A DNA stretch of 64,000 nt, from NCBI GenBank assembly GCA_016125475.1, contig WGLR01000015.1, positions 1 to 64,000 on the forward strand. The letters run 5' to 3'. Made by a program: the position numbers and the translations under genes. The stretch comes from Betaproteobacteria bacterium (GTDB lineage: Bacteria; Pseudomonadota; Gammaproteobacteria; Burkholderiales; Ga0077523). Positions within the stretch are counted from its first letter, which is position 1. The number at the start of each line of letters is the position of its first letter. This document shows positions 9,070 to 47,451 of the stretch, piece after piece. The notes beneath the pieces were generated by a model. That model ran no database searches and was not told where the DNA came from. It worked only from the letters and a program-made list of their open reading frames with translations.

Positions 9070-9076
9070 GGCCCGA

Positions 9077-11731: not shown

Positions 11732-11801
11732 CGGCGATCCTCCTCGAGAAGCGCGCAGTTTACTGCCAGCGCGAACGCGCTGTCGGTGCGGTCGCGAGCG
11801 T

Positions 11802-32858: not shown

Positions 32859-33455
32859 TCATGGGCCGTTTCCCGGCCCGCGCGCATCCGTCTCCGCGTC
32901 GAGCAACTCCTCGAGCCGGTCGAACGGAATCGGCTTGCCGAGCACGGTGACCCCTTCGGGCAGGCCCCCCTGCTCGTCGATGTCCCGGGACTGCAGGCCG
33001 GTGACGACGATGACCTTCATCGCAGCCAGGTCGGGCTGTGCGCAGAGTGTGCGCAACATCTGGAAGCCGTCGATCCCGGGCATCATCAGATCCGTGACGA
33101 GCACGTCGGGTCGACGCTCGCCGATCCGGATAAGCCCTTCGTACCCGTTCGTCGCGTGTCGCATTTCGGGGGGGCGGGCGAACGTCTCGAAACTCATGCG
33201 GTACAGGTCGAGCAGTGTCGCCTCGTCCTCGACGACGAGCACGTCGAGCCGCCGCGCACCCGTGGCGCGCGCCGCCGGCTGCCGCTCGGCGAGGAGTCGT
33301 TCGACGGACGACTGCAGGACGCGCCTGTGACCGCCCGGTGTCTTCCAGGCCTCGAGTACACCGCTTTCCGTCCAGAGCTGGACGGTTCTCAGCGAGACGC
33401 CGAGGCGTCGGGCTGCCTCACGGGTGGTGCAGGTATCGGGGTTGCGCGGTGTCAT
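32859..33455 (-). CDS. Excisionase/MerR-like HTH fused to response-regulator receiver
   Basis: 198 residues with an unusual order: an N-terminal helix-turn-helix of the excisionase/MerR type (TTREAARRLGVSLRTVQLW, then T-P-G-G-H-R-R-V) and a C-terminal REC domain with V-V-E-D-E-A, phospho-acceptor Asp in VTDLMMPGIDGF and Lys in VLGKPIPFD. It probably couples phosphorylation to DNA binding. A GGGGG element precedes ATG 33455, and the upstream 33470-33510 stretch is very AT-rich (CATTTTTTTCATTTAA), likely the operon promoter and operator. It heads the operon with the REC and PAS genes. Confidence 0.88.
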   Translation of the reverse strand: MTPRNPDTCTTREAARRLGVSLRTVQLWTESGVLEAWKTPGGHRRVLQSSVERLLAERQPAARATGARRLDVLVVEDEATLLDLYRMSFETFARPPEMRHATNGYEGLIRIGERRPDVLVTDLMMPGIDGFQMLRTLCAQPDLAAMKVIVVTGLQSRDIDEQGGLPEGVTVLGKPIPFDRLEELLDAETDARGPGNGP

Positions 33456-33565: not shown

Positions 33566-34063
33566 TCAGCCCTTCCGGATGCGGGAAACGAGGTCCGTGG
33601 TCGACCGGTCGTGCTGGAACGCGATCGCGTGTACCTGGCCACCCCAGCCCAGCACCTCGCGGGCACCGACGATCTGCTCGACGGGCCAGTCGCCGCCCTT
33701 CACGAGCACGTCCGGGCGCGCCTCGAGGATCAGGTCGAGCGGCGTGTCGGCATCGAAGGAAGTCACTAGATCGACGGACTCGAGTGCCGCGAGGACCGCC
33801 ATGCGGTCGGCGAGGGCATTGATCGGGCGATCGGTCCCCTTGCCCAGCCGGCGGACCGAGGCGTCCGAGTTGACGGCAACCATGAGACTCGCGCCGAGGG
33901 CACGGGCCTGTGCGAGATACGTCGCGTGCCCGCGGTGCAGGATGTCGAACACACCGTTCGTGAACACGAGCGGGCGGGGGAGGTCACGCACGCCGATCGC
34001 CATGACCTGGGGCGAGACGATCTTGCGTTCGAAACTCGGGGTCGGAAGAGCGGTAGCGTTCAT
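33566..34063 (-). CDS. rfaE2: D-glycero-beta-D-manno-heptose 1-phosphate adenylyltransferase
   Basis: 165 residues from ATG 34063. It is the stand-alone C-terminal half of HldE: the cytidylyltransferase-like fold with FTNGVFDILHRGHATYLAQA (H-R-G-H nucleotide motif) and NSDASVRRLGKG. It makes ADP-heptose precursor for lipopolysaccharide core, so the organism is Gram-negative. The kinase half is elsewhere. Its start lies eight bases after the ferritin-like gene's stop, so the two are co-transcribed. Confidence 0.93.
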   Translation of the reverse strand: MNATALPTPSFERKIVSPQVMAIGVRDLPRPLVFTNGVFDILHRGHATYLAQARALGASLMVAVNSDASVRRLGKGTDRPINALADRMAVLAALESVDLVTSFDADTPLDLILEARPDVLVKGGDWPVEQIVGAREVLGWGGQVHAIAFQHDRSTTDLVSRIRKG

Positions 34064-34071
34064 GGTCGGTG

Positions 34072-34923
34072 TCAGGCGGCCTCGGCGGGTCGGCCCGCGC
34101 CGCGCAGGAGTGACTTGCGGTAGCGGCTCAGGTCCTGGACCGAGGCGAGTGTGCTGTCGAAAAGGAGGGACAGATTCTTGAGGATCATGTTCACGACGCG
34201 TGTCTCCCACTCGGCGTCGAACCGGATCTGTTCGTCCAGCCAGCGCTCGAGCCAGCCGGGGTCGGGCAGGCGGGACTGCACGGTGTCGTTCGGGAACATC
34301 TCCTGGTTCACGTGCAGGTTCGTCGGATGCAGCGGCTTGCGGGTGCGGGCGGAGTTCGCCATCAGCATGCCGATCTTCGCGAAGGCGGCCCGTGCCTCGT
34401 CACCGAGCGCGGCGATCATGCGTTTCATGTACTGGAGGTAGGCCCCTGCGTGGCGCGCCTCGTCGCGCGAGACGAGCGTGTAGATGTGCCGGATGACGGG
34501 TTCCGTGTGCCATTCGGCCGCGCACCGGTACCAGTGGTTCAGGCGGATCTCGCCACAGAAGTGCAGCATGAGTGTTTCCTGCGGCGGTGCGGGATCGAAC
34601 GCGAACCTGACCGCGTGGAGTTCGTGCTCGGTCGGCGCGAACTCGGGCCGGAAGCGGCGGAGGTACTCCATGAGCACGAGCGAGTGCTTCTGTTCCTCGA
34701 AGAACCATACGGACATGAACGCGGAGAAGTCGCTGTCGTGCACGTTGTCGCGCAGAAACATTTCGGTCGCCGGCAGCGCGGCCCACTCCGTGATCGCGTT
34801 CATCTTCACGGTCGCTGCCTGTTCGTCCGTGAGCAGGGTGCCGTCGAAGGCGTCCCAGGGGATGTCCCGTTCCATGTTCCAGCGCACGCGTTCGAGGGAC
34901 TTGAAAATTTCGGGGTAGAGCAT
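34072..34923 (-). CDS. Ferritin-like di-iron protein
   Basis: 283 residues from ATG 34923 with GAGG eight bases upstream. Helices carry di-iron ligand pairs: E-W-A-A-L-P-A-T-E-M, F-F-E-E-Q-K-H-S, F-C-G-E-I-R-L-N-H-W and S-R-D-E-A-R-H-A-G (two E-x-x-H sites). This is the ferritin-like/fatty-acid-desaturase-2 type scaffold often found near heptose genes in betaproteobacteria. The substrate is unknown; it may be a desaturase or hydroxylase. It is upstream of rfaE2 in the same unit. Confidence 0.82.
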   Translation of the reverse strand: MLYPEIFKSLERVRWNMERDIPWDAFDGTLLTDEQAATVKMNAITEWAALPATEMFLRDNVHDSDFSAFMSVWFFEEQKHSLVLMEYLRRFRPEFAPTEHELHAVRFAFDPAPPQETLMLHFCGEIRLNHWYRCAAEWHTEPVIRHIYTLVSRDEARHAGAYLQYMKRMIAALGDEARAAFAKIGMLMANSARTRKPLHPTNLHVNQEMFPNDTVQSRLPDPGWLERWLDEQIRFDAEWETRVVNMILKNLSLLFDSTLASVQDLSRYRKSLLRGAGRPAEAA

Positions 34924-35016
34924 TCGAAAAACCTCAGCAATGGACAACAGATCCGTCCGGATGGATCGACCGGCCCTGCCGGACGGCAAATCGCGGGTGT
35001 GATGCGACGGTCGAGA

Positions 35017-36606
35017 TCACTGCCTGTCGAGCGTCGAAAGGACCCGACCGGCTTCCCGACGCAGGCTGCGTCGATCGGAATCGCCCAGGCGCACGATGTT
35101 CCGCGCCATCAGGGCCGTGCGGGGGTTCGAGGACAGCAGACGTTCGTTTGCATCGAGGAAATTCCAGTATAGCAGCGTGATGGGGCAGGCCCGCTCGCCC
35201 GAGCGCTCGCGCGGCGAGTACCGGCAGCCCCGGCAGTGATTGCTCATCCTGTCGACATAGGCGCCCGAGGCCACGTAGGGTTTGCTCGTGAAACGTCCAC
35301 CGTCGGCGTAGAGCGCCATGCCGGCGGTATTCGGCAGCTCGACCCACTCCACGGCATCCACGTAGACCGCCAGGAACCAGTCGCTCACGGCGGACGGGGC
35401 GAGCCCTGCGAGCAGGGCGAAGTTGCCGATGACCATGAGGCGCTGGATGTGGTGGGCGTAGCCGTACCGGAGCGTCTGGCCGACTGCGTCGCGCAGGCAG
35501 TTCATGGCCGTCGCGCCGGTCCAGAACCAGCCGGGCAGTTCCCGCGCGTGGCCGAAGTGATTCGCGGTCGCCAGCCCGGGCATCGTGTGCCAGTAGATGC
35601 CGCGCACGAACTCGCGCCAGCCGAGGATCTGGCGAACGAAGCCTTCGAGACTCGCGAGGGGCACGGGCTCGGCCGCATGACGCTCGAGCGCGCGGTCGAT
35701 GACTTCCCGGGGGGCGAGCAGCTTCAGGTTCAGGGCCGGGGAGAGCAGGCTGTGCGACAGAAACGGGTCGCCGCCCCACATGGCGTCCTGGTGGGCGCCG
35801 AACCCGGGCAGCCGGTGTTCCACGAAATCGTCCAGTGCCCGGAGCGCCTCCTCGCGCGTGGTCGGCCAGCCGAACGTGTCCAGGTCTCCGGGGTGATCGG
35901 CGAAGAGTCGCCCGACGGTGCGGATCACCTCCGCCGTGACCGGGTCCGGCGTGAAACGTACCGGGGCCGGGCGGGGCGCCGGGCCTTTCGACCCGAAGCC
36001 CTTGCGGTTCTCGCTGTCGAAGTTCCAGCGTCCCCCCACGGGCTCGTCGCCGTCCATGAGGATGCCCGTCGCGCGTCGCTGGTCCCGATAGAAGAACTCC
36101 ATGCGCCACTGCTTCCGGCTTCCAGCCCAGCGCGAGAACGTCCGCGTGGGGACGATGAAATGGGTGTCTGGCCGGACGTCGAGAGGCGTGGCGGTTTCGC
36201 GGCACACGCGTTCGAGGGTCTCGCGCACGCGGTACTCGCCCGGTTCGCAGACGACCAGCGCGGACGGTCGATGGCGCGCGAGCCACCCACGCAGCCGTTC
36301 GGCGAGCGGGGCGGCAATCGGCGCGTCGATGTCGATGTAGTCGACGCGCACACCATTCGCCCGCAGTGTGTCCGCGAACCGTCGCATCGCCGCGAGGAAC
36401 AGCGCGATCCTGGCCTTGTGCGACCAGACGTGCCGCGCTTCCCCGGGGGCCTCGATCATCAGCACGCTGCCGCCGTGTGCGAGCGCTTCGGCGATCGCCG
36501 GATTGTCGAGGGAAAGCTGGTCGCCCAGCACGAGCGCGAACGGGCGGCTGCGAGGCGGCGGACCGGAGGGGGCTGGCGGCATGCTCGGCGCGGGTCCGGC
36601 CGTCAC
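35017..36606 (-). CDS. Iron-sulphur photolyase/cryptochrome (FeS-BCP, PhrB type)
   Basis: 529 residues from a GTG at 36606 immediately after the regulator's stop; ATG 36582 is an alternative. It repairs (6-4) photoproducts in light, using FAD and a 4Fe-4S cluster. Four cysteines (Cys370, Cys458, Cys461, Cys474) have exactly the spacing of those in Agrobacterium PhrB (350, 438, 441, 454 as remembered), each offset by 20. The YGYAHHIQRLMVIGN block contains the active-site histidines. The gene abuts the B12-type photoreceptor gene, so it is under its autoregulated promoter. Confidence 0.93.
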   Translation of the reverse strand: MTAGPAPSMPPAPSGPPPRSRPFALVLGDQLSLDNPAIAEALAHGGSVLMIEAPGEARHVWSHKARIALFLAAMRRFADTLRANGVRVDYIDIDAPIAAPLAERLRGWLARHRPSALVVCEPGEYRVRETLERVCRETATPLDVRPDTHFIVPTRTFSRWAGSRKQWRMEFFYRDQRRATGILMDGDEPVGGRWNFDSENRKGFGSKGPAPRPAPVRFTPDPVTAEVIRTVGRLFADHPGDLDTFGWPTTREEALRALDDFVEHRLPGFGAHQDAMWGGDPFLSHSLLSPALNLKLLAPREVIDRALERHAAEPVPLASLEGFVRQILGWREFVRGIYWHTMPGLATANHFGHARELPGWFWTGATAMNCLRDAVGQTLRYGYAHHIQRLMVIGNFALLAGLAPSAVSDWFLAVYVDAVEWVELPNTAGMALYADGGRFTSKPYVASGAYVDRMSNHCRGCRYSPRERSGERACPITLLYWNFLDANERLLSSNPRTALMARNIVRLGDSDRRSLRREAGRVLSTLDRQ

Positions 36607-37494
36607 TCAGGGCATGCCGTGCGAGGATCTCCACGCCCCGACGAGCTGGCTCACCTGATCGAGCGACTTCACGACCTGCACGCCGTCGATGCCCCGCCGC
36701 AATCGACGTACGCAGCTGCCGCCGGCCCAGATCTCGATCCCGCGCGGCAGCAGGGCCCGCAGTTCGCGAAGGCCCGACGACGCCTGGCGGTCCGGGAACG
36801 CGGCACTGAACGACAGTGCGACCGCGTTGGCCCGGTGGGCGTCTGCCGCCCGCACGATCTCGACGGCCGGCGTCTCGGTCCCCAGGGGGATGCAGATGAC
36901 ACCCTCGACCACGAGCAGCGCTTCCACCATGAGCAGGCCGAGGTTGTGCTGCTCGGTCGGAAACGAGGTCAGCAGCACTCTCGGCGAGCGCCCCTGACCC
37001 TGCGCCGAGGCAATCGCGTTGCGCAGGACGCCCTGCACCTGCTCGGTGTAGAGGTGCTCCTCGAATACCGCGAATTCGCCGCGGACCCAGGCCTCCCCGA
37101 CCGCCACGGTGAGGGGGGCGACCGTGTCCATCACGAAGCGCTGCAGGCCCTGGCGCATGAGCATCTGCTGCAGCCGTTGCCGGAAATCCGGCAGCCGGTG
37201 CGCGCGGATCAGCTCGATCACCTCGACGATCCCGGCGTCGCGCTGCTCCGAGGAAGCGTGCGACGTCCCGAGCGCGCTCAGTTCGTCGATCGGGAGCCCG
37301 ATGATCTTGCCCGGCCGGAAACCCCGGTCCATGAGCCGCTTGATCGCGCGGAGCTTCGTCACCTGCTCCGGCGGGTAGACGCGCTCGCCGTGCTCGTCGC
37401 GCAGGGGGGTCGGGTACCGGTATCGCCGCTCCCACATGCGCAGGACGTCCTTCGACAGTCCCGTGTCACGCTCTACCGCACCAATGCTCAGCAT
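36607..37494 (-). CDS. B12-dependent MerR-family photoreceptor/repressor (CarH/LitR type)
   Basis: 295 residues if started at ATG 37494 (MLSIGAVERDTGLSKDVLRM), the family's usual N-terminus. The frame is open to 37881, and a GTG at 37593 is possible. The winged helix carries W-E-R-R-Y. The cobalamin cap motif W-x9-EH is intact (Trp136, Glu146, His147). The base-off ligand motif E-x-H-x-x-G is intact as Glu181-His183-Gly186 in PTEQHNLG. Such proteins bind adenosylcobalamin as dark tetramers and release DNA when light cleaves the Co-C bond. The position equivalent to the light-state upper His of Thermus CarH appears to be Val137. It is divergent from the light-locus operon and abuts the photolyase. 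Confidence 0.9.
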   Translation of the reverse strand: MLSIGAVERDTGLSKDVLRMWERRYRYPTPLRDEHGERVYPPEQVTKLRAIKRLMDRGFRPGKIIGLPIDELSALGTSHASSEQRDAGIVEVIELIRAHRLPDFRQRLQQMLMRQGLQRFVMDTVAPLTVAVGEAWVRGEFAVFEEHLYTEQVQGVLRNAIASAQGQGRSPRVLLTSFPTEQHNLGLLMVEALLVVEGVICIPLGTETPAVEIVRAADAHRANAVALSFSAAFPDRQASSGLRELRALLPRGIEIWAGGSCVRRLRRGIDGVQVVKSLDQVSQLVGAWRSSHGMP

Positions 37495-37602
37495 CACGCC
37501 GTGCTCGACAGACGGGGCGCGCTCCGCCACGAGAGCCGGACTCGTGTCGCCGGCGTCCCGTTCGCTGCTCTCCGTTCGGACCAATGTGATCACCTTGATT
37601 GT

Positions 37603-37681
37603 TTTGTCCAAGACAAAGTGTTGACAACTACCGAAAGCGCCCTTAGTGTACGGCCGAAAGGTAGTTTTGACTAGGACAAAA
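37603..37681. promoter_or_regulatory. Divergent promoter region with two operator dyads
   Basis: Dyad 1 is TTTGTC-CAA-GACAAA (37603-37617, perfect). Dyad 2 is TTTTGAC-TAG-GACAAAA (37665-37681, one mismatch). Their centres are 63 bp apart, six helical turns. The forward promoter reads TTGACA (37621-37626), 17 bases, TAGTGT (37644-37649). The reverse promoter reads TAGTCA, 17 bases, TACACT, its -35 lying inside dyad 2. Dyad 1 abuts the forward -35. This layout lets one repressor block both directions, as expected for an autoregulated LitR/CarH protein. Assignment of the dyads to this regulator is inference. Confidence 0.7.
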
Positions 37682-37693
37682 CAGGAGGCGTGC

Positions 37694-38029
37694 ATGCGCG
37701 ATTCAAAATGTAGGACTCTCGTCGTCTTCATGCCGCACGTTCTTGCGTCAGTGCTGTTCGCCGCTGCTCCCACAGCGTGGGCGGAGATGGCCGACGTGGC
37801 AGGTCCGGCCGTCATCCGTGGCGGAAATGCCTGCACCGTGTCTGCCGCACAGGATCGAGGCTCCGAAAATGTCCTGGACAAACACGCCCGTAACGATGGG
37901 GATGTCGACCAGGACGACAGTGTGATGCTCGGCTATCTCGCCCTCCACGAACGTTCCGTCGCACCCACCCTCATCGGCCGGCTGATGCCCTGGTTCGCGC
38001 TGTCCCGACACGATTTCGGTGCGAACTGA
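37694..38029 (+). CDS. Small exported protein of the light locus
   Basis: 111 residues with AGGAGG six bases before ATG 37694. A clear signal peptide (M-R-D-S-K-C-R then hydrophobic V-V-F-M-P-H-V-L-A-S-V-L-F-A-A-A) ends at A-W-A/E. The mature part of about 80 residues is acidic in the middle (LDKHARNDGDVDQDDSVM), has one Cys, and ends with W-F-A-L-S-R-H. No family is recognised. It is the first gene downstream of the dyad-controlled promoter, so it is likely light-induced. A long hairpin follows its stop. Confidence 0.65.
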   Translation: MRDSKCRTLVVFMPHVLASVLFAAAPTAWAEMADVAGPAVIRGGNACTVSAAQDRGSENVLDKHARNDGDVDQDDSVMLGYLALHERSVAPTLIGRLMPWFALSRHDFGAN

Positions 38030-38039
38030 GGGGCCACGA

Positions 38040-38109
38040 GGTTCAGGTCGCGGGCGAGTCTCCCCTCACCCGCGTGCCACCCCCGCGCGGATTGCCTGCG
38101 ACCTGAACC
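38040..38109 (+). repeat. 16-bp stem-loop between the exported protein and folE2
   Basis: Arm 38040-38055 (GGTTCAGGTCGC then GGGC) pairs with 38094-38109, 16 pairs with one G-T wobble and a 38-base loop. No T-run follows on the plus strand, so it is not a classical terminator. It sits in the leader of folE2 and could attenuate transcription, mark a processing site or be a repeat insertion. Confidence 0.6.
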
Positions 38110-38164
38110 CCCTGCCGTTGCGAGACCACTCCCGACCACACTCTGCCTGCGGACCGACCTGACC

Positions 38165-38977
38165 GTGAACGCCCCTGAACGCATTTCCCTGCCGGACATC
38201 CAGTCGAGACCCGACACCCGGTCGATCGTGATCGACCGGGTCGGCATCAAGGATCTCCTGCATCCCATCCGCGTCCGCACTGCCGGAGGCGAATCCGTCG
38301 CGACCGTGGCGACCGCCGAGATGTACGTGCGCCTGCCGGCCCATGCGACCGGCACGCACATGTCCCGCTTCGTCGAGCTTCTCGAGGCGCACGAACATCC
38401 CGTGGACCTCCCGGGACTGCGGGAACTGACCGGGCGGATGCTGCAGCGCCTCGACGCCGAGTCGGGGTTCCTCGGGCTCTCGTTTCCGTATTTCATCCGC
38501 AAGCTCGCGCCCGTGTCGGGTGTGGCGAGCCGGGTCGACTATCGGGTGGTGATGTCCTGCGACATGCGCGCGGACCGCGGGGTCGTGCAGACCCTCGAGG
38601 TCACGGCGCCCGTCACGAGCCTGTGTCCGTGCTCAAGGGAGATCTCCGACTACGGTGCGCACAACCAGCGCTCACACATCACGATCGCGGCGACGCTCTG
38701 CGGCGACCTGACGATCGAGGACCTCGTCGCGGTGGCCGAGCAGGAGGCCTCCTGCGAGGTGTTCGGACTGCTCAAGCGTCCCGACGAGAAGTGGGTGACC
38801 GAGCGTGCATACGACAACCCGAAGTTCGTCGAGGACCTGGTCCGGGACATCGCGCTGAGGCTGGACGCAGACGACCGCATCGCTCGCTACGTGGTGGAAT
38901 CCGAGAACTTCGAGTCGATCCACAATCATTCCGCCTACGCACGGATCGAGCGCGACCGTCGCGTCCCGGCGGCGTGA
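38165..38977 (+). CDS. folE2: GTP cyclohydrolase FolE2
   Basis: 270 residues from GTG 38165. The FolE2/MptA family replaces FolE for the first step of folate and queuosine synthesis, GTP to dihydroneopterin triphosphate. The metal Cys region [20 protein letters not shown] is intact. FolE2 uses varied divalent metals and is often induced when zinc is short or under stress. Here it lies inside a photoreceptor-controlled locus, as in some light regulons, where pterin supply for photolyase antenna chromophores (folate) is a reasonable reason; this link is inference. Confidence 0.93.
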
Positions 38978-38999
38978 TGCGCCGGTTCGCGAGTCCGCG

Positions 39000-40283
39000 A
39001 TGAGGCGCAGACGGATCGCCGTGGTCGGCGCGGGAATTTCGGGTCTCGGCGCCGCCTGGCTGCTGCGTGGCCACCACCGCGTGACGCTCTTCGAATCCGC
39101 GCACTACGCGGGCGGCCACACGAATACCGTGGACGTCACCCTCGAAGGGCGGACGTTTCCGGTCGACACCGGATTTCTCGTGTTCAACGCGCGCACCTAT
39201 CCGAACCTGTGCGCGCTGTTCGAGAATATCGGCGTGTCATGGGTCGAGAGCGACATGTCGTTCAGCGTGCGCGTGGATTCCGAGAACCTCGAATGGGCGG
39301 GGAGCAGCGTGGGCGGCGTGTTCGCCCAGCGTCGCAATCTGGTCCGGCCGGAATTCTGGCGCATGCTCCAGGACATCCTGCGTTTCAACCGCGAGGCCTC
39401 GGGCGCCGTCGAGCGGTCCGCGAGCGGGCTCGGGACGCTCGGGGAGTTCCTGGACCGCCAGCGTTACGGGCGTGCCTTCCGGGACTGGTATCTGCTGCCG
39501 ATGGGTGCAGCCATCTGGTCGTGCCCGGCTGCCCGGATGCTGGACTATCCCGCGCGTCCGTTCCTGCAGTTCTGCCACAACCACGGCCTGCTCCAGCTGA
39601 GCGGCCGACCCCGCTGGCGGACCGTGTCGGGCGGTGGCAGATCCTACGTGGCGCGCGTGATCTCGGACCTCGACGACGTACGCCTCGGGAGCCCCGTCAG
39701 ACGCATCCGGCGCGCGGACGGCTGGGTGGAAGTCGTCACGGACGCGGGCACCGAGACCTTCGACGACGTCATCCTCGCGACCCACGCGGACCGATCGCTC
39801 GCGATGCTCGCGGATCCGACGCCCGACGAGGCGGCCGTGCTGGGTGCGTTCCGCTACCAGCCCAACGTCGCGTACCTCCACACCGACCGCTCGCTGCTGC
39901 CCCGCGCACGCGAGGCCTGGTCCGCGTGGAACTACCTCGCCGGTGCCGGAAGGTCGGACGACCGGCCCGTGTCGGTGAGCTACCTCATCAATCGGCTTCA
40001 GCCGCTGCCGTGCGAGACGGCCGTGATCGTCACGCTCAATCCGCCACGGGAGCCGGATCCGGACAGCTGCATCCGTCGGATCGACTACAGCCATCCCGTG
40101 TTCGATGCCGCGGCGATCGCCGCGCAGCAGCGCCTCCCGGGCCTCCAGGGCGGACGTCGCACCTGGTTCTGCGGCGCGTGGACCGGGCACGGGTTCCACG
40201 AAGACGGCCTGCGCTCGGCGGTGGCAGTCGCGAACGCCCTGGGCGTGAAGGCGCCGTGGCAGTACGAGGCGGTCGCCGCATGA
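39000..40283 (+). CDS. FAD/NAD-binding amine-oxidase-like protein (COG2907)
   Basis: 427 residues. N-terminal dinucleotide fold I-A-V-V-G-A-G-I-S-G-L-G-A-A-W followed by E-S-A-H-Y-A-G-G-H-T-N-T, and a C-terminal FAD-contact block W-F-C-G-A-W-T-G-H-G-F-H-E-D-G. COG2907 genes almost always accompany DUF1365 and cyclopropane synthase genes, and work on fatty acyl chains of phospholipids is suspected. It follows folE2 by 22 bases and overlaps the DUF1365 start as ATGA. Confidence 0.9.
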   Translation: MRRRRIAVVGAGISGLGAAWLLRGHHRVTLFESAHYAGGHTNTVDVTLEGRTFPVDTGFLVFNARTYPNLCALFENIGVSWVESDMSFSVRVDSENLEWAGSSVGGVFAQRRNLVRPEFWRMLQDILRFNREASGAVERSASGLGTLGEFLDRQRYGRAFRDWYLLPMGAAIWSCPAARMLDYPARPFLQFCHNHGLLQLSGRPRWRTVSGGGRSYVARVISDLDDVRLGSPVRRIRRADGWVEVVTDAGTETFDDVILATHADRSLAMLADPTPDEAAVLGAFRYQPNVAYLHTDRSLLPRAREAWSAWNYLAGAGRSDDRPVSVSYLINRLQPLPCETAVIVTLNPPREPDPDSCIRRIDYSHPVFDAAAIAAQQRLPGLQGGRRTWFCGAWTGHGFHEDGLRSAVAVANALGVKAPWQYEAVAA

Positions 40284-41080
40284 CCGCGCTCGCGACAGTC
40301 GTCCTCACGGACGGCGCCAGACCGGCGGCGCTCCTGTTCCGGGGAGAGGTGATGCACGCGCGTGTCCGGCCGCGGCGACACGCGTTCCGCTACCGGGTCT
40401 TCTTCCTCCGTCTGCGGCTCGGAGACGAGGATCGCGCGCGCCGTGGCCTGCTGTCCGTCGACCGCTTCAACCTGTTCAGCTTTCACCGGCGAGATCACGG
40501 GCCCCGCGACGGACGGGACCTGCTGGGCTGGATCCGGGAACTGTTGCGGAACGAGGGCGTGGCCGGGGCGGACGGCGAGGTCTGGCTGCAGGCCTTTCCC
40601 CGGGTGCTCGGCTACGTCTTCAACCCGGTGAGCTTCTGGCTCTGCCACGACCGCGAGGGCCGGCTGCGCGCCGTGCTGTGCGAGGTGAACAACACCTTCG
40701 GCGAGTCCCACAACTATCTCGTCTGCCACGCCGACGGGCGGCCGATCGAGCCCGGTGACGAACTGAGTGCGCGCAAGGTCTTTCATGTCTCGCCCTTCTT
40801 TCGGGTCGAAGGGGCGTACCGGTTCCGGTTCGAGACGGCACCTGCCCGGACGTGCATCCGCATCGACTACGACGGTCCCGACGGCAGGCTGCTCGCCACC
40901 TCGGTGTCCGGTTCGGGCGAGGCGCTGACCACGACTTCGCTCATCCGCTGCTTCTTCGTTTACCCTTGGCTCACCCTGGGGGTGATCCTGCGCATCCACT
41001 GGCAGGCGCTGAAGCTCTGGAGGAAGGGCATGCCGTTCTTCGGCAAGCCGGAGCCACCGGTCCGGGGGACAACTCGATGA
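40280..41080 (+). CDS. DUF1365 family protein
   Basis: 266 residues, ATG 40280 overlapping the previous stop. DUF1365 signatures: HARVRPRRHAFRYRVFFLRL near the N-terminus, YVFNPVSFWLCHD, E-V-N-N-T-F-G-E-S-H-N-Y and K-V-F-H-V-S-P-F-F. A helical segment near the C-terminus (FFVYPWLTLGVILRIHW) could be membrane-associated. Its biochemical role is unknown, but it travels with COG2907 and Cfa in photo-oxidative stress regulons, suggesting a role in branched or furan fatty acid formation. Confidence 0.9.
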   Translation: MTALATVVLTDGARPAALLFRGEVMHARVRPRRHAFRYRVFFLRLRLGDEDRARRGLLSVDRFNLFSFHRRDHGPRDGRDLLGWIRELLRNEGVAGADGEVWLQAFPRVLGYVFNPVSFWLCHDREGRLRAVLCEVNNTFGESHNYLVCHADGRPIEPGDELSARKVFHVSPFFRVEGAYRFRFETAPARTCIRIDYDGPDGRLLATSVSGSGEALTTTSLIRCFFVYPWLTLGVILRIHWQALKLWRKGMPFFGKPEPPVRGTTR

Positions 41081-42303
41081 AACTGGACGACATGCCCGCC
41101 GGCTCCTATCACATCGGCTCCGCCCCGCCCTCGCGGGCCGCGCGCTTCGTGCTCGCGCTGCTCGAGCGCATCCAGGTCGGACGTCTCGATCTGATCGCGC
41201 CGGACGGCATCGCCCGTACGTTCGACAGCCGGTTCCCGGGGCCGCACGCGATGATCAGGCTGTCCGACTGGGAAGTCTGCGGCGAGATTCTGCGCCGTGG
41301 GGACATCGGCTTCGGCGAGACGTACATGGCGCGGCGCTGGGACACGCCGGACCTCGCGGAACTGCTCACGCTCGTCGCGCGCAACTACGTCGCGCTCGAG
41401 AAGGCCATCTACGGGCGCTGGTGGGGCCGGCTGGCGGACCGGATCCGGCACCTCATGCGCTCCAACCGTCGCATCCAGGCGAAACGCAACATCCGCGCGC
41501 ACTACGACCTCGGCAACGAGTTCTACCGCCTCTGGCTGGACGAGACCATGACCTACTCGTGCGCGATGTTCGAGGGGCGGACGTCCCGCAGCCTCGGCGA
41601 CGCCCAGCGGGCCAAGTACGAGCGCATCTGCGAGCATCTCGACCTGCGGCCCGGGCAGCGCGTGCTCGAGATAGGCTGCGGGTGGGGAGGCTTCGCCGAA
41701 CATGCCGCGAAAACGCGCGCGTGCTACGTGCACGGCCTCACGCTGTCGCGCGAACAGCGCGCCTACGCGTGCGAGCGCATTGCGGCGGCCGACCTCGACG
41801 ACCTCGTGAAGATCGAACTGCGGGACTACCGCGACGTTCGCGGCGAGTTCGACCACGTCGTGTCCATCGAGATGTTCGAAGCCGTGGGCGAGCGGTACTG
41901 GCCCGTCTTCTTCGACGTGATCCGGAAGCGCCTGCGGACGGGCGGGCGCGCGCTGATCCAGACCATCGTGATCGCCGACGAGCGCTTCGAGTCCTACCGG
42001 CGCGGGACGGACTTCATCCAGAAGTACATCTTCCCGGGCGGCATGCTGCCGTCCGAGGAGGTCTTCCGGGACCACGCCGCCCGGAAAGGCCTGCTGATCG
42101 GTGCGCGGCGGGCTCTCGGGCTCGACTACGCGGCCACGCTGCGGCACTGGCGACACGGGTTCAATCGTCGGGTCGGGGAACTGAACGCCATGGGGTTCGA
42201 CGAGCGGTTCATCCGCATGTGGAACTTCTACCTCGCGTACTGCGAGGGCGGATTCCGCGCAGGCACGATCGATCTCGTTCAGCAGGAACTGAAGCGTGTC
42301 TGA
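41077..42303 (+). CDS. cfa: Cyclopropane-fatty-acyl-phospholipid synthase
   Basis: 408 residues from ATG 41077 overlapping the DUF1365 stop. The SAM-binding motif is VLEIGCGWGGFAEHAAK; upstream A-H-Y-D-L-G-N-E-F-Y and M-T-Y-S-C-A-M-F, and downstream V-S-I-E-M-F-E-A-V-G and F-I-Q-K-Y-I-F-P-G-G-M-L-P-S are all family hallmarks. It adds a methylene bridge to unsaturated acyl chains, which protects membranes against singlet oxygen and acid. The gene is part of the overlapping light-locus operon. Confidence 0.95.
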   Translation: MKLDDMPAGSYHIGSAPPSRAARFVLALLERIQVGRLDLIAPDGIARTFDSRFPGPHAMIRLSDWEVCGEILRRGDIGFGETYMARRWDTPDLAELLTLVARNYVALEKAIYGRWWGRLADRIRHLMRSNRRIQAKRNIRAHYDLGNEFYRLWLDETMTYSCAMFEGRTSRSLGDAQRAKYERICEHLDLRPGQRVLEIGCGWGGFAEHAAKTRACYVHGLTLSREQRAYACERIAAADLDDLVKIELRDYRDVRGEFDHVVSIEMFEAVGERYWPVFFDVIRKRLRTGGRALIQTIVIADERFESYRRGTDFIQKYIFPGGMLPSEEVFRDHAARKGLLIGARRALGLDYAATLRHWRHGFNRRVGELNAMGFDERFIRMWNFYLAYCEGGFRAGTIDLVQQELKRV

Positions 42304-42859
42304 GGCCCGCCGTCCCGCTTCCCTCGCGCGACGTGTACTGAGCGTCGCTTGCCTGGCGATCGTGCTCGCCGCGGGGGCGGGGCCGGCGGATGCGAACGCG
42401 TCGCTCGACCCTGTGCGGAAGGTCGTCCCCGACCTGCGGATGCTCGGGCAGGGGGTGATGACGTGGTTCGGGCTGCGTCTCTACGAGGCGGCGCTCTGGG
42501 CGCCGGACGACCGGCTCGACTGGCGTCGGCCGTTCGCGCTCGACATCCGTTACGCGCGGGCATTCTCCGGCGCCCGGCTCGCTCGCGCGAGCGCGGACGA
42601 GATGAAGCGGCTGGGCATGCGCGATTCCGCGCGCCTCGCGCGATGGCAGGCGGAGATGGCCGCCGTGTTTCCCGACGTCGAGGCTGGCGATCACATAACG
42701 GGACTGTACAGGCCCGGCGAGGGAGCCGAGTTCTTCCACAACGGCCAGCTTGCCGGTCGCATCGACGACCCGGAATTCGCGCGCACGTTCTTCGGGATAT
42801 GGCTGGACCCGCGAACGAGGGAGCCGGATCTGCGCGCGGACCTGCTCGGAGCACGGTGA
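42296..42859 (+). CDS. Chalcone-isomerase-like exported protein
   Basis: 187 residues from GTG 42296, overlapping cfa by eight bases. A signal peptide (A-R-R-V-L-S-V-A-C-L-A-I-V-L-A-A-G-A-G-P-A-D-A) precedes a chalcone-isomerase-type fold with L-G-Q-G-V-M-T-W-F-G-L-R-L-Y-E-A-A-L-W and R-Y-A-R-A-F-S-G. The catalytic residues of plant enzymes cannot be verified. Bacterial members often occur with COG2907/Cfa genes and may bind fatty acids in the periplasm. Confidence 0.85.
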   Translation: MSEARRPASLARRVLSVACLAIVLAAGAGPADANASLDPVRKVVPDLRMLGQGVMTWFGLRLYEAALWAPDDRLDWRRPFALDIRYARAFSGARLARASADEMKRLGMRDSARLARWQAEMAAVFPDVEAGDHITGLYRPGEGAEFFHNGQLAGRIDDPEFARTFFGIWLDPRTREPDLRADLLGAR

Positions 42860-44181
42860 AACAGCCGAGCGTCGCGCCGATGCTGCTCGCGCGCTACGCG
42901 GCCCTCGCGCTGCCGCTCGCGATGGCGGCACTGCCGGTGTACGTGTACGTGCCCAAGCTCTACGCGGACGAGGGCGGCATGGGTCTCGCCGTCGTGGGAA
43001 CGGTCCTGCTGATCACCCGGGCCTTCGACGCGATCCAGGATCCGGTCATCGGCTGGTGGAGCGACCGTGCGGCCGTCCGCGCCGGCGGTCGCAGCGGGGC
43101 ACTGGTCGCCTCCGTCGCGCTGCTGGGCGTCGGCGTCCTCGGGCTCTTCCACCCGCCGGGCTGGCCGGCCGGAGCCGGGGCCGCCTGGCTCGCGACCTGT
43201 CTCGTCGTCACGTACCTGGGGTTCAGCATCGGCACGATCAACTACTTCGCGATGGGCGCGGAGATCTCGGACGACTATCACCAGCGCACGCGCGTGACCG
43301 CTACCCGCAGTGCCGCCGGGGTCGCCGGCGTCCTGCTCGCGGCCGTGCTGCCGGAGGTATTCGGCGGTGACCGCGGTCTCGCGCACGGTCTCGCGACGTT
43401 CTCCCTCGTCTTCACCGGCGCGCTCGTCGCGGGCGCGTTCCTGACGACCTTCGGTGTGCCTCCTTCCGCGCGCGTGCAGGCAGCCGCGCGCGGAACCTTT
43501 TCCTGGCGCGCCATCGGTCGTCCGCTCGCGAACCGTCACTTCCGCTGGCTGCTCGCGACGTTCGTCGCGAGTGGTGTCGCCTCCGCGATTCCCGCGACGC
43601 TGATCCTGTTCTACGTGCAGGACCTGCTCGGCCGCGCGGACCTGAACGGCGTCTTCCTGTGCACATACTTCGCGTTCGCGGCACTCGGCATGCCGCTCTG
43701 GGTCCGTGCCTCGCGACGGCTCGGGAAGAAGGGGGCGTGGCTGCTCGGCATGGCGATGAGCATCGGCGCCTTCGTCTGGGCCTTCCTGCTGGGACCGGGA
43801 GACGTCGGTGCGTTCGCGGTCGTCTGCGCGCTTTCCGGGATCGCCTACGGCGCCGAACTCGCGATCCCGCCGTCGCTGCTCGCGGACGTCGCGGCGACGA
43901 CGCGGTCGGGGCCGGACGGCACGGGGGACGCCTCCTATTTCGGGTTCTGGCAACTGGCGGAGAAAGCCAACCTCGCGCTGGCGGCGGGGTTCGCACTGCC
44001 CGTGCTGGCGCTCGCGGGGTACCGGCCCGGAGACGCGCAGGCCGCGATGGGCGACCTCAGCGCCATGTACGCGCTCGTTCCATGCCTGATCAAGTCCGGC
44101 GCGCTCGCCGTGCTGTGGCTGTCTCCCGTCGACTCGGCCGGGGCAGGGCAGCCCCGCCCATCGAACGGAGAATTCCGATGA
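42856..44181 (+). CDS. MFS transporter (GPH/MelB-like)
   Basis: 441 residues from GTG 42856 overlapping the previous stop (GTGA). Twelve hydrophobic helices, with the family motif R-A-F-D-A-I-Q-D-P-V-I-G-W-W-S-D-R between helices 2 and 3 and F-S-I-G-T-I-N-Y-F-A-M-G-A-E in helix 4. MelB-type carriers move sugars or lipids with cations; homologues in this gene neighbourhood are thought to handle lipids, but that is not shown. It is coupled to the DUF3833 gene (ATGA). Confidence 0.9.
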   Translation: MKQPSVAPMLLARYAALALPLAMAALPVYVYVPKLYADEGGMGLAVVGTVLLITRAFDAIQDPVIGWWSDRAAVRAGGRSGALVASVALLGVGVLGLFHPPGWPAGAGAAWLATCLVVTYLGFSIGTINYFAMGAEISDDYHQRTRVTATRSAAGVAGVLLAAVLPEVFGGDRGLAHGLATFSLVFTGALVAGAFLTTFGVPPSARVQAAARGTFSWRAIGRPLANRHFRWLLATFVASGVASAIPATLILFYVQDLLGRADLNGVFLCTYFAFAALGMPLWVRASRRLGKKGAWLLGMAMSIGAFVWAFLLGPGDVGAFAVVCALSGIAYGAELAIPPSLLADVAATTRSGPDGTGDASYFGFWQLAEKANLALAAGFALPVLALAGYRPGDAQAAMGDLSAMYALVPCLIKSGALAVLWLSPVDSAGAGQPRPSNGEFR

Positions 44182-44720
44182 ACCGACGCAGGCTGTTCCT
44201 GGCCGGAGGGTGCGCGATGCTGCTTTCGGGCTGTTCTTCCACGGGGATCGAGGCGTTCCGGAACGAGCGTCCGGAACTGGATCTCCGCGCGTACTTCGAT
44301 GGCAGGGTCGACGCGTGGGGCATCGTCCGCAACCGTGACGGCGCGATCTCGCAGCGCTTCCTCGTGACGATCGACGCGAGCTGGCAGGGCGACACCGGCA
44401 CGCTCGACGAACGTTTCCGGTACTCGGACGGGCACGAACAGCGGCGCGTCTGGACGCTCAGGAAGTCCGGAGACCGCTACGTCGGCACGGCGGCAGACGT
44501 GGTCGGCGAGGCGCACGGCGAGACGGCCGGCAACGCGTTCCGGTTCCGGTACGTGCTCGACTTTCCCTACGGCAGGTCGACGATCCACCTCGACGTCGAC
44601 GACTGGATGTACCTGATGGACGACGAGGTGCTGCTGAACCGGTCGAGCATCCGCAAGTTCGGATTCGAGGTGGCCCAGGTGTTCATCAGCTTTCGCCGGC
44701 AGGGCCCGCGCGAGCCGTGA
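44178..44720 (+). CDS. DUF3833 lipoprotein
   Basis: 180 residues from ATG 44178. Lipoprotein signal with lipobox L-S-G-C at residues 17-20. The DUF3833 core is Y-F-D-G-R-V-D-A-W-G-I-V-R-N-R-D-G, then F-L-V-T-I-D-A-S-W and D-D-W-M-Y-L-M-D-D-E-V-L-L-N-R-S. The function is unknown; its fixed place among Cfa, DUF1365 and MFS genes points to envelope lipid work in the photo-oxidative response. It overlaps the SDR start. Confidence 0.9.
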   Translation: MNRRRLFLAGGCAMLLSGCSSTGIEAFRNERPELDLRAYFDGRVDAWGIVRNRDGAISQRFLVTIDASWQGDTGTLDERFRYSDGHEQRRVWTLRKSGDRYVGTAADVVGEAHGETAGNAFRFRYVLDFPYGRSTIHLDVDDWMYLMDDEVLLNRSSIRKFGFEVAQVFISFRRQGPREP

Positions 44721-45490
44721 TGAACACGCCGATTCGCGACTGGTCCCGGCTTCGCGTCTGGGTGGTGGGCGCGTCCACGGGCATCGGATGTGCGCTGGCG
44801 GCCGAGCTGCTGCGAAGCGGAGCGCGCGTCGCACTGTCCGCGCGAACGCCGGAATCCCTCGAGGCCGTGGCGGGGACGAGCCCCGGGAACGCGCTCGTGC
44901 TCCCGGTCGACGTCACGGACGCTGCGGGTGTGAGAGCGGCCTTCCGCACGTGCCTGGATCGCTGGCAGGGCCTGGACGTCGTCTTTCACGTCGCCGGGAC
45001 CTATGAGCCGATGCGGGCGGTCGATTTCGATGCGCAGCGTCTCGCCCGCCACCTCGACGTGAACGTGATGGGCGTGGCGAGAGTGCTCGATCACGTGCTG
45101 CCCCATTTCACGCAGCACCGGTCGGGACACGTCGTGATCGTCGCGAGCGTGGCGGGCTACCGCGGTCTTCCCAAGGCGCTGGCGTACGGTCCGACGAAGG
45201 CCGCACTCATCAATCTCGCGGAGGGGCTCTATCTCGATCTCGCGCCGACCGGCATCGGCGTGCACCTGGTGAACCCCGGTTTCGTTCGCACCCCGCTCAC
45301 CGCGGGCAACGACTTCGAGATGCCGGCGCTCATCGAGCCGGAAGAAGCGGCGCGTGCGACGCTGCGGGGGCTGGCCCGGGGCGAGTTCGAGATCCACTAC
45401 CCCACCCGCTTCACGCGCTGGCTCAAGCTGCTGAGGGTTCTCCCCTACTCATGGTACTTCCCGATCGTGCACCGGATCACGGGGCTGTAG
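44717..45490 (+). CDS. Short-chain dehydrogenase/reductase
   Basis: 257 residues; GTG 44717 and ATG 44720 are adjacent possible starts. Cofactor loop G-A-S-T-G-I-G, active-site Ser in I-V-A-S-V-A-G and Tyr/Lys in Y-G-P-T-K-A-A are intact. The C-terminal 40 residues (T-R-F-T-R-W-L-K-L-L-R-V-L-P-Y-S-W-Y-F) are hydrophobic and basic, suggesting membrane contact as in lipid-acting SDRs. Its 3' end overlaps the next gene by 40 bases. Confidence 0.9.
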   Translation: MMNTPIRDWSRLRVWVVGASTGIGCALAAELLRSGARVALSARTPESLEAVAGTSPGNALVLPVDVTDAAGVRAAFRTCLDRWQGLDVVFHVAGTYEPMRAVDFDAQRLARHLDVNVMGVARVLDHVLPHFTQHRSGHVVIVASVAGYRGLPKALAYGPTKAALINLAEGLYLDLAPTGIGVHLVNPGFVRTPLTAGNDFEMPALIEPEEAARATLRGLARGEFEIHYPTRFTRWLKLLRVLPYSWYFPIVHRITGL

Positions 45491-45930
45491 GCGGCCACGT
45501 CGACGCGCTCGCGCGCTTCTACGAGTCCCTCCGCCCGGAGTCCCTCGACGGCCTCGGACGCTTCTACGCGGACGAGGCGCGTTTCCGCGATCCGTTCAAC
45601 GACGTGTCCCGACTGCCGGAGATCCGGGCCATATTCGAGCACATGTTCAGGACACTCGAGGAGCCGAGGTTCGAGATCGTGAACCGCGTCGTCGACGGGG
45701 ATCAGGCCATGCTGGAATGGGTGTTCACGTTCCGTGTGCGCCGTTTCCGCCCCGCGACACGCCGGCGGGTGCACGGCGTGAGTCACGTCCGTTTCGGCCC
45801 CGACGGTCGCGTGATCTATCATCGCGACTACTGGGACACGGGAGAGGAACTCTATGCGCATCTGCCAGTCATCGGCATGCTCTGGCGGCGTCTGCGCGCG
45901 GCACTCGCGACACCGCGCGGGTCCGGCTGA
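45451..45930 (+). CDS. NTF2/SnoaL-like protein
   Basis: 159 residues if started at ATG 45451, inside the SDR gene; no better start is visible. The cone-shaped NTF2-like fold is suggested by L-A-R-F-Y-E-S-L, Y-A-D-E-A-R-F-R-D-P-F-N-D-V and a C-terminal V-I-Y-H-R-D-Y-W-D-T-G-E-E-L-Y. Such proteins accompany SDRs in the light locus of many proteobacteria. Catalysis is not established. This is the last member of the overlapping run before photolyase. Confidence 0.85.
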   Translation: MVLPDRAPDHGAVGGHVDALARFYESLRPESLDGLGRFYADEARFRDPFNDVSRLPEIRAIFEHMFRTLEEPRFEIVNRVVDGDQAMLEWVFTFRVRRFRPATRRRVHGVSHVRFGPDGRVIYHRDYWDTGEELYAHLPVIGMLWRRLRAALATPRGSG

Positions 45931-45999
45931 TGGCCGTGCCGCCCCGGTGACGCGGGCCGCCCCCCGGTCATGCACCTGGAATCGTCTCCGCCTCTTTCC

Positions 46000-47451
46000 A
46001 TGACCTCCTGCGATCGCGCACTCGTCTGGTTCCGTCGGGACCTGCGCGCCTCCGATCACGCTGCGCTCTCCCACGCGCTCATGTCCGCGCGCGCGGTCTG
46101 GTGCGTGTTCGTCTTCGACACCGATATTCTCGACGCGCTGCCGTCCCGGGAGGACCGGCGCGTCGAGTTCATCTGGCACACGATCGTCGAACTGCGTCTC
46201 GCGCTCGAGGCGCTGGGGGGCGGTCTGTCCGTCGCGCACGGACGCGCGCGCGAGGTCATTCCGCGGCTCGCCGACGAACTGGGCGTGGATGCCGTGTTCG
46301 CGAACCGGGATTACGAGCCCGACGCGATCGCGCGCGACGTGGCCGTGGCGGAGACGCTCGCCGCATCCGGACGTCGTCTGGTCACGTTCAAGGACCAGTG
46401 CATCTTCGAGAAGGACGAGATCCTCACCCAGGCGGGCAAGCCTTACTCGGTGTTCACGGCCTACAAGAACGCGTGGCTCAAGCGCGTCGATGCGCAGGCG
46501 CTCTCGCCCTGTCCGGTGGAAGCCCATGCCGGCGCGCTGGTGCCGGACGCAGGCGGACCGGTGCCCTCGCTCGCCTCGCTCGGTTTCTCGCGCACGAACC
46601 TGACGGACCTGAAGCTGCCGCTCGGCATCGCGGGCGGGCGCGCGCTCCTGGAGGATTTCGCGGGTCGTATCGACCATTACGCCGAGCGCCGCGATTTCCC
46701 GGCGGTCCGCGGACCGTCCTATCTGTCGGTCCACCTGCGTTTCGGAACGGTCTCGCTGCGCGAACTCGCGCGGCTCGCGTACGGGCGCAACTCGCAGGGC
46801 GCGCGGACGTGGCTGTCGGAGCTGGTCTGGCGGGATTTCTACTTCCAGATCCTCTGGCACTTTCCACGCGTGGTGAATCGTTCGTTCAAGCCCGAGTTCG
46901 ACACGCTGCGATTCGAGAATCGCGACGACTGGTTCGAGGCGTGGTGCGAAGGGCGGACGGGCTACCCGATCGTCGACGCGGCGATGCGGCAGCTGAACAC
47001 CACCGGCTACATGCACAACCGGCTGCGCATGATCTCGGCATCCTTCCTCGTGAAGGACCTCCGCATCGACTGGCGGCGGGGCGAGCGGTATTTTGCCGCA
47101 CGTCTCAACGACTACGATCTCGCGGCCAACAACGGCGGCTGGCAGTGGGCGGCGTCGACGGGGTGCGACGCGCAGCCGTATTTCCGGATCTTCAACCCCG
47201 TGTCGCAGTCGGAGAAGTTCGACCCCGAGGGCCGCTTCATCCGCCAGTACCTCCCGGTTCTCGCCGAAGTGCCGAACCGCTGCATCCACGCGCCCTGGAC
47301 CATGTCGCCTATCGAGGCACGGGCCGCGCGTGTCGTCATCGGGGAGAACTATCCCGCGCCGATCGTCGACCACGCGGAGGCCCGGAAACTCGCGCTCGCG
47401 ATGTTCGCCGCCGTGAAGTCGTCCGCCGGTCGCGGGCCGGCAGCCGGATGA
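46000..47451 (+). CDS. phrB: Class I CPD photolyase
   Basis: 483 residues from ATG 46000 (MTSCDRALVWFRRDLRASDH); ATG 45970 is an alternative. The N-terminal alpha/beta antenna domain is followed by the FAD domain. W-C-E-G-R-T-G-Y-P-I-V-D-A-A-M-R-Q-L, D-W-R-R-G-E-R-Y-F and N-N-G-G-W-Q-W-A-A-S-T-G supply the active-site and electron-transfer tryptophans. It splits cyclobutane pyrimidine dimers with blue light. It lies about 70 bases after the NTF2-like gene. With the FeS photolyase the locus covers both main UV lesions. Confidence 0.95.
   Translation: MTSCDRALVWFRRDLRASDHAALSHALMSARAVWCVFVFDTDILDALPSREDRRVEFIWHTIVELRLALEALGGGLSVAHGRAREVIPRLADELGVDAVFANRDYEPDAIARDVAVAETLAASGRRLVTFKDQCIFEKDEILTQAGKPYSVFTAYKNAWLKRVDAQALSPCPVEAHAGALVPDAGGPVPSLASLGFSRTNLTDLKLPLGIAGGRALLEDFAGRIDHYAERRDFPAVRGPSYLSVHLRFGTVSLRELARLAYGRNSQGARTWLSELVWRDFYFQILWHFPRVVNRSFKPEFDTLRFENRDDWFEAWCEGRTGYPIVDAAMRQLNTTGYMHNRLRMISASFLVKDLRIDWRRGERYFAARLNDYDLAANNGGWQWAASTGCDAQPYFRIFNPVSQSEKFDPEGRFIRQYLPVLAEVPNRCIHAPWTMSPIEARAARVVIGENYPAPIVDHAEARKLALAMFAAVKSSAGRGPAAG

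Follow-up and report, generated by a model that had tools for sequence, protein, structure and literature searches.

We describe a locus in a 64,000-nucleotide stretch of a Betaproteobacteria bacterium genome (assembly GCA_016125475.1, contig WGLR01000015.1, positions 1 to 64,000; hereafter, the window) in which a gene cluster very probably senses light via vitamin B12 and then switches on genes for DNA repair and an unusual membrane lipid. We consider it likely that a divergent operon for repair and furan fatty acids is controlled by a light-released, adenosylcobalamin (AdoCbl)-loaded repressor of the class I CarH/LitR type. Predicted B12 light switches of the CarH type, lying next to photolyase and candidate furan fatty acid genes, recur in Betaproteobacteria and are of a kind already known. 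New here are a strongly conserved RNA hairpin that fits no known family, and a regulator without the histidine that helps switch its best-studied relative. The hairpin, whose conservation greatly exceeds that of its flanks, has no Rfam family, and together with the missing histidine it is what would surprise specialists; more broadly, the locus points to a testable B12 light regulon beyond carotenoid synthesis in many Betaproteobacteria. The window is part of contig C38 in a genome of 4.88 Mb in 48 contigs.

In the proposed mechanism, the AdoCbl-loaded repressor would in the dark bind two operators, O1 at the −35 box and O2 just past the transcription start, which would sandwich a sigma-70-type promoter and block the divergent operon; via O1, the repressor would also block its own gene. 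Light would break the Co–C bond and the repressor would let go. A single transcript would then begin with the gene of a small secreted protein and a structured RNA and continue through FolE2 and the UfaD, UfaO and UfaM types, along with accessory genes, to the class I photolyase. FolE2 might supply extra pterin or folate, perhaps for a photolyase antenna, and an FeS photolyase would be co-transcribed with the regulator gene. The features at the center of this proposal are as follows.

36607..37494, minus strand: CarH/LitR-type MerR regulator, 295 amino acids (MerR_1 and B12-binding_2; B12-binding below cut-off)
37603..37617, unstranded: predicted operator O1, TTTGTCCAAGACAAA, one mismatch to the motif, ending 3 bp short of the −35 box
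37621..37649, plus strand: predicted promoter TTGACA-N17-TAGTGT (pattern TTGACA-N14-19-TA...T in 55 of 83 distinct gaps)
37666..37680, unstranded: predicted operator O2, TTTGACTAGGACAAA, two mismatches, between the likely transcription start (predicted about 10 bp ahead of O2) and the first gene
37694..38029, plus strand: 111-amino-acid protein (AGGAGG at 37683; C-terminal MPW motif)
37868..37882, unstranded: candidate third operator O3, AATGTCCTGGACAAA, two mismatches, inside the small gene; weak
38042..38107, plus strand: conserved RNA hairpin of 66 nucleotides, with a long stem, an inner hairpin and C-rich unpaired stretches

The regulator and its cobalamin-binding residues

Relatives were found with two search patterns, and the best 80 of 579 regulator-bearing named records were kept as the basis of all 80-relative counts. 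These 80 are mostly labeled Betaproteobacteria, Burkholderiales, Rhodocyclaceae or genera thereof, some just Proteobacteria or similar, and the majority are metagenome assemblies. The regulator also occurs in records without a metagenome-assembled-genome label, namely Dechloromonas agitata, Rhodocyclus purpureus, Azoarcus taiwanensis, Zoogloea sp. 1C4 and Variovorax sp. PCZ-1; its presence in D. agitata, R. purpureus and a Zoogloea makes tests practical. Residue counts derive from 81 aligned regulators (80 named plus the window protein), one row of which is gapped (n = 80 rows). A separate alignment, A1, holds the window and 19 of the 24 other fetched loci, leaving out L051 and L057 (close kin of kept rows), L071 (truncated), L072 and L073.

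The window regulator carries a MerR DNA-binding domain (PF13411, 51.7 bits) in which the RxWERRY helix appears as LRMWERRY, and a B12-binding_2 domain (23.9 bits, above the cut-off of 23). Thermus thermophilus CarH (5c8d) matches its sequence with an E-value of 1.4e-24. An AlphaFold model of the protein has a mean predicted local distance difference test score (pLDDT) of 90.5, and a structure search with this model returned 112 PDB matches at E up to 0.001, all 50 of the 50 listed being T. thermophilus CarH/LitR chains. Against chains of the CarH cobalamin-binding domain, the target template-modeling (TM) score was mostly 0.75–0.83 at a root-mean-square deviation (rmsd) of about 3 Å; against full-length CarH chains the rmsd was large (14–22 Å), which we read as the domains being placed differently in the model.

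Both cobalamin motifs, reported intact in a first-pass annotation of this DNA, are indeed present as W136-x9-E146-H147 and E181-x-H183-x-x-G186, and the GG of the Rossmann domain lies at G258 and G259. The equivalents of W131, E141, H142 and H177 (Thermus CarH numbering) are kept in 80 of 80 rows; one search pattern contained the EH motif, so the E141 and H142 counts are partly selected; the W131 and H177 counts are unselected, W131 being in neither pattern. The E and G of ExHxxG, GxxxP and the GG are likewise kept in 80 of 80 rows. AdoCbl binding is a well-supported prediction for this regulator. A PduO-type adenosyltransferase gene is present in the window's own genome; a CobA-type adenosyltransferase is absent from it.

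Predicted operators and promoter, and alternative triggers

The first-pass annotation had placed the regulator's target in the divergent region at 37590–37690, and both predicted operators fall there. We examined gaps between merR and the divergent operon in 83 distinct cases out of 92, duplicates removed (e.g. L087 = L061), with gaps clipped to 450 bases for operator-site counts. Control stretches (n = 1638) and control TTGACA sequences (n = 152) were drawn over 84 gaps, one duplicate included. The palindrome TTTGTCCNGGACAAA, at up to 3 mismatches, was found in 74 of the 83 gaps, with at least 2 copies in 56, as against 52 of the 1638 random stretches of the same loci with a site and 10 with two or more. 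In 25 of these 56 gaps the first two sites are 74 bp apart, and in 20 they are 11 bp closer, at 63 bp.

Positions relative to the −35 box were taken from the 55 gaps with a TTGACA-N14-19-TA...T promoter (up to 4 mismatches per site). Among the 51 gaps with an upstream site, its start is at −29 in 26 and at −18 in 22, positions separated by 11 bp, the CarH repeat unit; among the 53 with a downstream site, it starts at +45 in 48, and O2 of the window likewise begins 45 bases from the −35 start. An ACA exactly 11 bp 5′ of TTGACA occurs in 44 of 58 TTGACA gaps, the window included, and three tandem units occur in 23; among the 152 TTGACA elsewhere in the loci, 5 have one such 11-bp step and none has two. 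Thermus and Bacillus CarH operators are described as tandem 11-bp repeats (PMC9304148). Two predicted operators usually sandwich the divergent promoter across the loci, and, as far as sequence goes, this geometry supports regulation of the divergent operon by the regulator. O1 also overlaps a weak promoter-like site on the merR strand (minus-strand 37627–37598). A site at a place comparable to O3 was found in L058, where no small gene was seen.

The predicted operator code could be used for genome scanning. At up to 1 mismatch, the pattern occurs in the window's own genome here and at one more place, C17:161095, within a coding frame. This second place was considered as a further repressor target but, since it lies inside an open frame that resembles an ATPase gene by eye, was taken as a chance match.

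Several observations weigh against the proposed mechanism. The Pfam B12-binding model scores 29.7 bits on the regulator, under its cut-off of 32.1, and the NCBIfam CarH equivalog scores 117.6 bits where 400 are required. The residue equivalent to His132 of Thermus CarH is His in 0 of 80 rows; it is V137 in the window protein and, over the 80 rows, M in 31, E in 24, V in 14, and L, S, I, A, G or R in 11. The Gly of the GxxH signature (described in PMC11796333) is Thr in the window protein and is Gly in 11 of 80 rows. A homologue outside the named set, L072, has lost the W, the EH and the lower His, as judged by eye. At the DNA level, the predicted promoter has a poor −10 box and was not returned by a promoter scan, 9 of the 83 gaps have no operator site, and O1 is an inverted repeat overlapping direct repeats, not a purely tandem array. 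At up to 2 mismatches, the window's own genome holds 13 operator matches against 8 for a reversed control.

His132 is the upper cobalt ligand of light-exposed Thermus CarH, in the bis-His state, and H132A CarH is reported to be mostly tetrameric after light in a paper that also cites an earlier report that it comes apart (PMC10442372). This histidine is found in many, not all, CarH proteins of Myxococcales (PMC9304148) and hence does not define the family. Because its equivalent is absent here, the release step may depart from the textbook one, and the missing histidine offers a natural experiment to learn if CarH can come apart in light without bis-His ligation. The first-pass annotation had proposed that light switches repair and lipid remodeling together. 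That proposal is supported in part: a B12-based light switch over repair and lipid modification is backed by the regulator's place in the CarH/LitR family, predicted operators at the named place, an encoded PduO-type adenosyltransferase and the conserved gene set.

The histidine missing in all 80 rows, together with a Rossmann B12 domain just under the Pfam cut-off, would also fit a regulator that is no longer a B12 light sensor and that, like class II LitR, is released by a different photoreceptor encoded elsewhere in the genome, such as a short LOV protein. A class II LitR in Pseudomonas runs a very similar operon in this way (PMC9758184). Class II proteins, however, are described as keeping only the four-helix bundle (PMC9758184), whereas the window regulator has both subdomains and keeps the tested AdoCbl contacts, and we regard this account as improbable.

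We think it very improbable that photo-oxidative stress (from singlet oxygen or other reactive oxygen species; ROS), acting through the MerR protein or a ChrR/ECF11 pair, is the trigger in place of AdoCbl photolysis. Furan fatty acid genes do belong to the core sigmaE-ChrR regulon (PMC6852236), and Vibrio cholerae employs both ChrR and a MerR-like protein (PMC5241685). The promoter here, however, is of the TTGACA type and is overlapped by CarH-type repeats, and ChrR-like sequences in the window's own genome amount to two weak matches (31.2 and 30.4 bits; cut-off 124.5). A light-released, AdoCbl-dependent class I repressor is the reading we retain.

Separately, the L072 homologue (9942–10892, minus strand; another genus) adjoins an FeS photolyase and FolE2 despite its lost cobalamin residues. 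It is possibly a B12-independent switch.

A conserved RNA hairpin and the small gene beside it

The first-pass annotation did not mention the 111-amino-acid gene (37694–38029) or the RNA hairpin (38042–38107), and the diiron and rfaE2 genes (33566–34926) lay outside its span. The predicted fold of 38034–38118 has an energy of −46.3 kcal/mol (z −6.24), with 0 of 200 shuffles as good. The hairpin itself shows 83–94% identity in 8 of 10 fetched same-genus loci; in these relatives the flanks are 53–57% identical over 150 nucleotides on the 5′ side and 35–54% over 47 nucleotides on the 3′ side, which is at random level, as random pairs of flank-type stretches have mean identities of 53% (5′) and 51% (3′). 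A covariance model found the hairpin in 9 of 12 genomes of the genus, always beside this locus and at one place per genome, and in 0 of 387 other genomes of the order, where its filters can lose weak matches. The hairpin is missing from G009, a genus genome without a regulator match, and also from G003 and G011, which have the regulator. Rfam searches at the gathering score gave no match in the window, L053, L054 or L056; below threshold there were six matches in 37400–38300 (E 0.068 to 9.8). A limited look at the literature turned up no RNA of this type in LitR/CarH operons.

We entertain, tentatively, a two-part extension of the class I reading. The light-induced transcript would carry a new structured RNA that acts on its own operon or, once processed, on other messages via its C-rich loops, so that the B12 switch would control a riboregulator too; in addition, the Betaproteobacterial CarH clade would release in light without bis-His ligation. 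For the RNA alone, a simpler account is that the hairpin is a mere transcript stabilizer or terminator-like structure without a partner. Its stem is long and rich in GC and sits between the small gene and the operon, and, while 180 of 180 cells pair in the hairpin alignment, the changes are one-sided (5 pairs) and two-sided covariation was not found, so that pairing is unproven by covariation. Conservation of the unpaired C-rich stretches, however, is similar to that of the stem, and terminator-like sites were not found; we find this account possible but rather doubtful.

Two other roles were considered and rejected. The hairpin does not serve FolE2 alone, as L056 and L057 retain it without a FolE2 match, and it is not a mobile repeat, as it has a single place per genome. 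A search for trans targets gave no clear signal: allowing 1 mismatch, one C-rich stretch had 16 other sites matching its complement, and the reversed control had 10. Counterpart hairpins were sought with 25 shuffles per step in L055 and L058, two loci without the hairpin, and the best z was −2.2 and −1.6, respectively. A scan of other genera gave z values of −4.1 (L151), −3.1 (L080), −2.0 (L063) and −1.6 (L085), and some other loci may carry a weaker, unrelated structure.

The 111-amino-acid protein has no match in Pfam or NCBIfam. Its N-terminus resembles a signal peptide by eye, and it is probably secreted. By an MPW/LPW test, similar small proteins occur in 6 of 11 genus loci (the window, L049, L050, L051, L053 and L054) and, outside the genus, in L085 and, weakly, L080. 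In one close pair of relatives the small gene has a pN/pS of 0.37, with 32 of 56 changes at third positions, a substitution pattern that looks like that of a real gene. In this genus the small protein occupies the gap position held elsewhere by a glutathione peroxidase motif, which was found between promoter and operon in 30 of the 83 gaps (e.g. L088, L120 and L151).

Operon cargo and comparison with known systems

Family searches and open reading frame coordinates bear out all twelve genes named in the first-pass annotation, two photolyases included, at their places. From COG2907 through NTF2 each gene overlaps the next, as had been noted, and the overlaps span 1 to 40 bases. COG numbers serve here as names for window genes; the searches gave Pfam families. 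The remaining features are the following.

33566..34075, minus strand: RfaE domain II (heptose-1-phosphate adenylyltransferase), a frequent neighbor (TIGR02199, 192.5 bits; cut-off 181.5)
34072..34926, minus strand: diiron protein related to acyl-ACP desaturase/AurF, a frequent neighbor (PF03405, 30.6 bits; cut-off 22.7)
35017..36606, minus strand: FeS-type (6-4) photolyase/CryB relative (PF04244, 245.7 bits)
38165..38977, plus strand: FolE2, second GTP cyclohydrolase I (NF010200, 274.4 bits; cut-off 215)
39000..40283, plus strand: flavin oxidase (COG2907 type), candidate UfaD (PF01593, 57.7 bits)
40280..41080, plus strand: DUF1365 protein, candidate UfaO (PF07103, 271.9 bits)
41077..42303, plus strand: CFA-synthase-like methyltransferase (Cfa), candidate UfaM (PF02353, 298.8 bits)
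42296..42859, plus strand: chalcone isomerase-like protein (PF16036, 53.2 bits)
42856..44181, plus strand: MFS_2/GPH-family carrier (PF13347, 222.4 bits)
44178..44720, plus strand: DUF3833 protein (PF12915, 214.9 bits)
44720..45490, plus strand: short-chain dehydrogenase (SDR; PF00106, 142.9 bits)
45451..45930, plus strand: SnoaL/NTF2-like protein (PF12680, 70 bits)
45970..47451, plus strand: class I photolyase (PF03441, 304 bits; PF00875, 149.7 bits)

Gene content was counted in 40 named loci with 9 kb on either side of merR, out of the best 80 of 579 records; 4 of the 40 (L074, L077, L082 and L095) belong to the window's genus. Genes were scored anywhere in the locus, so distant paralogues may be counted. 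COG2907, DUF1365 and Cfa were each present in 39 loci, the MFS carrier, DUF3833 and SDR in 35 each, and the chalcone isomerase-like and NTF2 proteins in 34 each. FolE2 was found in 25, RfaE2 in 20 and the diiron protein in 12. The FeS photolyase was found in 7 and the class I photolyase in 6, the latter an undercount because this gene sits at the far edge of the 9-kb span.

The members of the CMAS, amine-oxidase and DUF1365 families are adjacent in the window and match the Ufa set at the family level only. In Rhodobacter sphaeroides, UfaO contains DUF1365, and UfaM, UfaD and UfaO together suffice for furan fatty acid synthesis (PMC7380195). We infer that the flavin oxidase may correspond to UfaD and Cfa to UfaM, and at the family level the "lipid remodeling" of the first-pass annotation can be made more specific as furan fatty acids.

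The FeS photolyase is matched by R. sphaeroides CryB (3zxs) at E 2.1e-142, and four cysteines align, which we take to be the cluster ligands; the family and CryB comparisons were run on 35017–36600. Besides FolE2, the genome encodes a FolE1-family gene (C12:64528). The diiron protein is 70–83% identical across 24 relatives, with E47, E78, H81, E126, E156 and H159 invariant (25 of 25 aligned). Its gene often adjoins merR together with rfaE2, and in L062, L065 and L105 it instead follows NTF2; as a guess, it could act on the same lipids as the operon enzymes. Elsewhere in the window, 32859–33455 (minus strand) encodes a small protein in which an excisionase-type helix-turn-helix is fused to a response-regulator receiver domain. 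In L068 (G000:C17), positions 8997–12112, near a contig end, hold Doc-like, transposase-like and ATPase-like open frames (labels by eye) and are perhaps a defense or mobile region.

One close comparison is with the LitR/CarH regulon (pmlR1/pplR1 operon) of Pseudomonas mendocina and P. putida, where, as here, a MerR regulator is found with phrB, an SDR, an FAD oxidoreductase, ufaM and genes for hypothetical proteins, the operon opens with a hypothetical gene, and Site 1 lies at −35 with Site 2 between the transcription start and the first gene (PMC9758184). The P. mendocina class II relative represses a similar promoter and is released by light (PMC9758184). In contrast to the regulator described here, these regulators are class II, lack a complete B12 domain and respond to a LOV protein; their operator is TRTACA-N12-TGTAYA versus TTTGTCCNGGACAAA here, and they have FolE, FolM and FolX where this operon has FolE2 (PMC9758184). 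PhrR was considered as a name for the regulon and set aside, as that literature lead was an unrelated regulator.

R. sphaeroides shares UfaD, UfaO (DUF1365) and UfaM at the family level (RSP1087-1091 and ufaM; PMC7380195, PMC6852236), but there the set is under sigmaE/ChrR and singlet oxygen (PMC6852236), whereas here it lies beside a CarH-type repressor. The blue-light response of V. cholerae likewise involves a MerR-like regulator (VCA0056), a photolyase (phr, VCA0057) and a light-induced CFA synthase gene; it differs in that ChrR also governs much of the response and the MerR protein is proposed to sense ROS (PMC5241685). With T. thermophilus CarH, the regulator shares the fold (predicted here), the AdoCbl contacts W131, E141, H142 and H177, and the 11-bp operator repeat unit, while it lacks H132 and has a second operator downstream. 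The targets differ as well: carotenoid genes for T. thermophilus CarH, and photolyases and fatty acid genes here.

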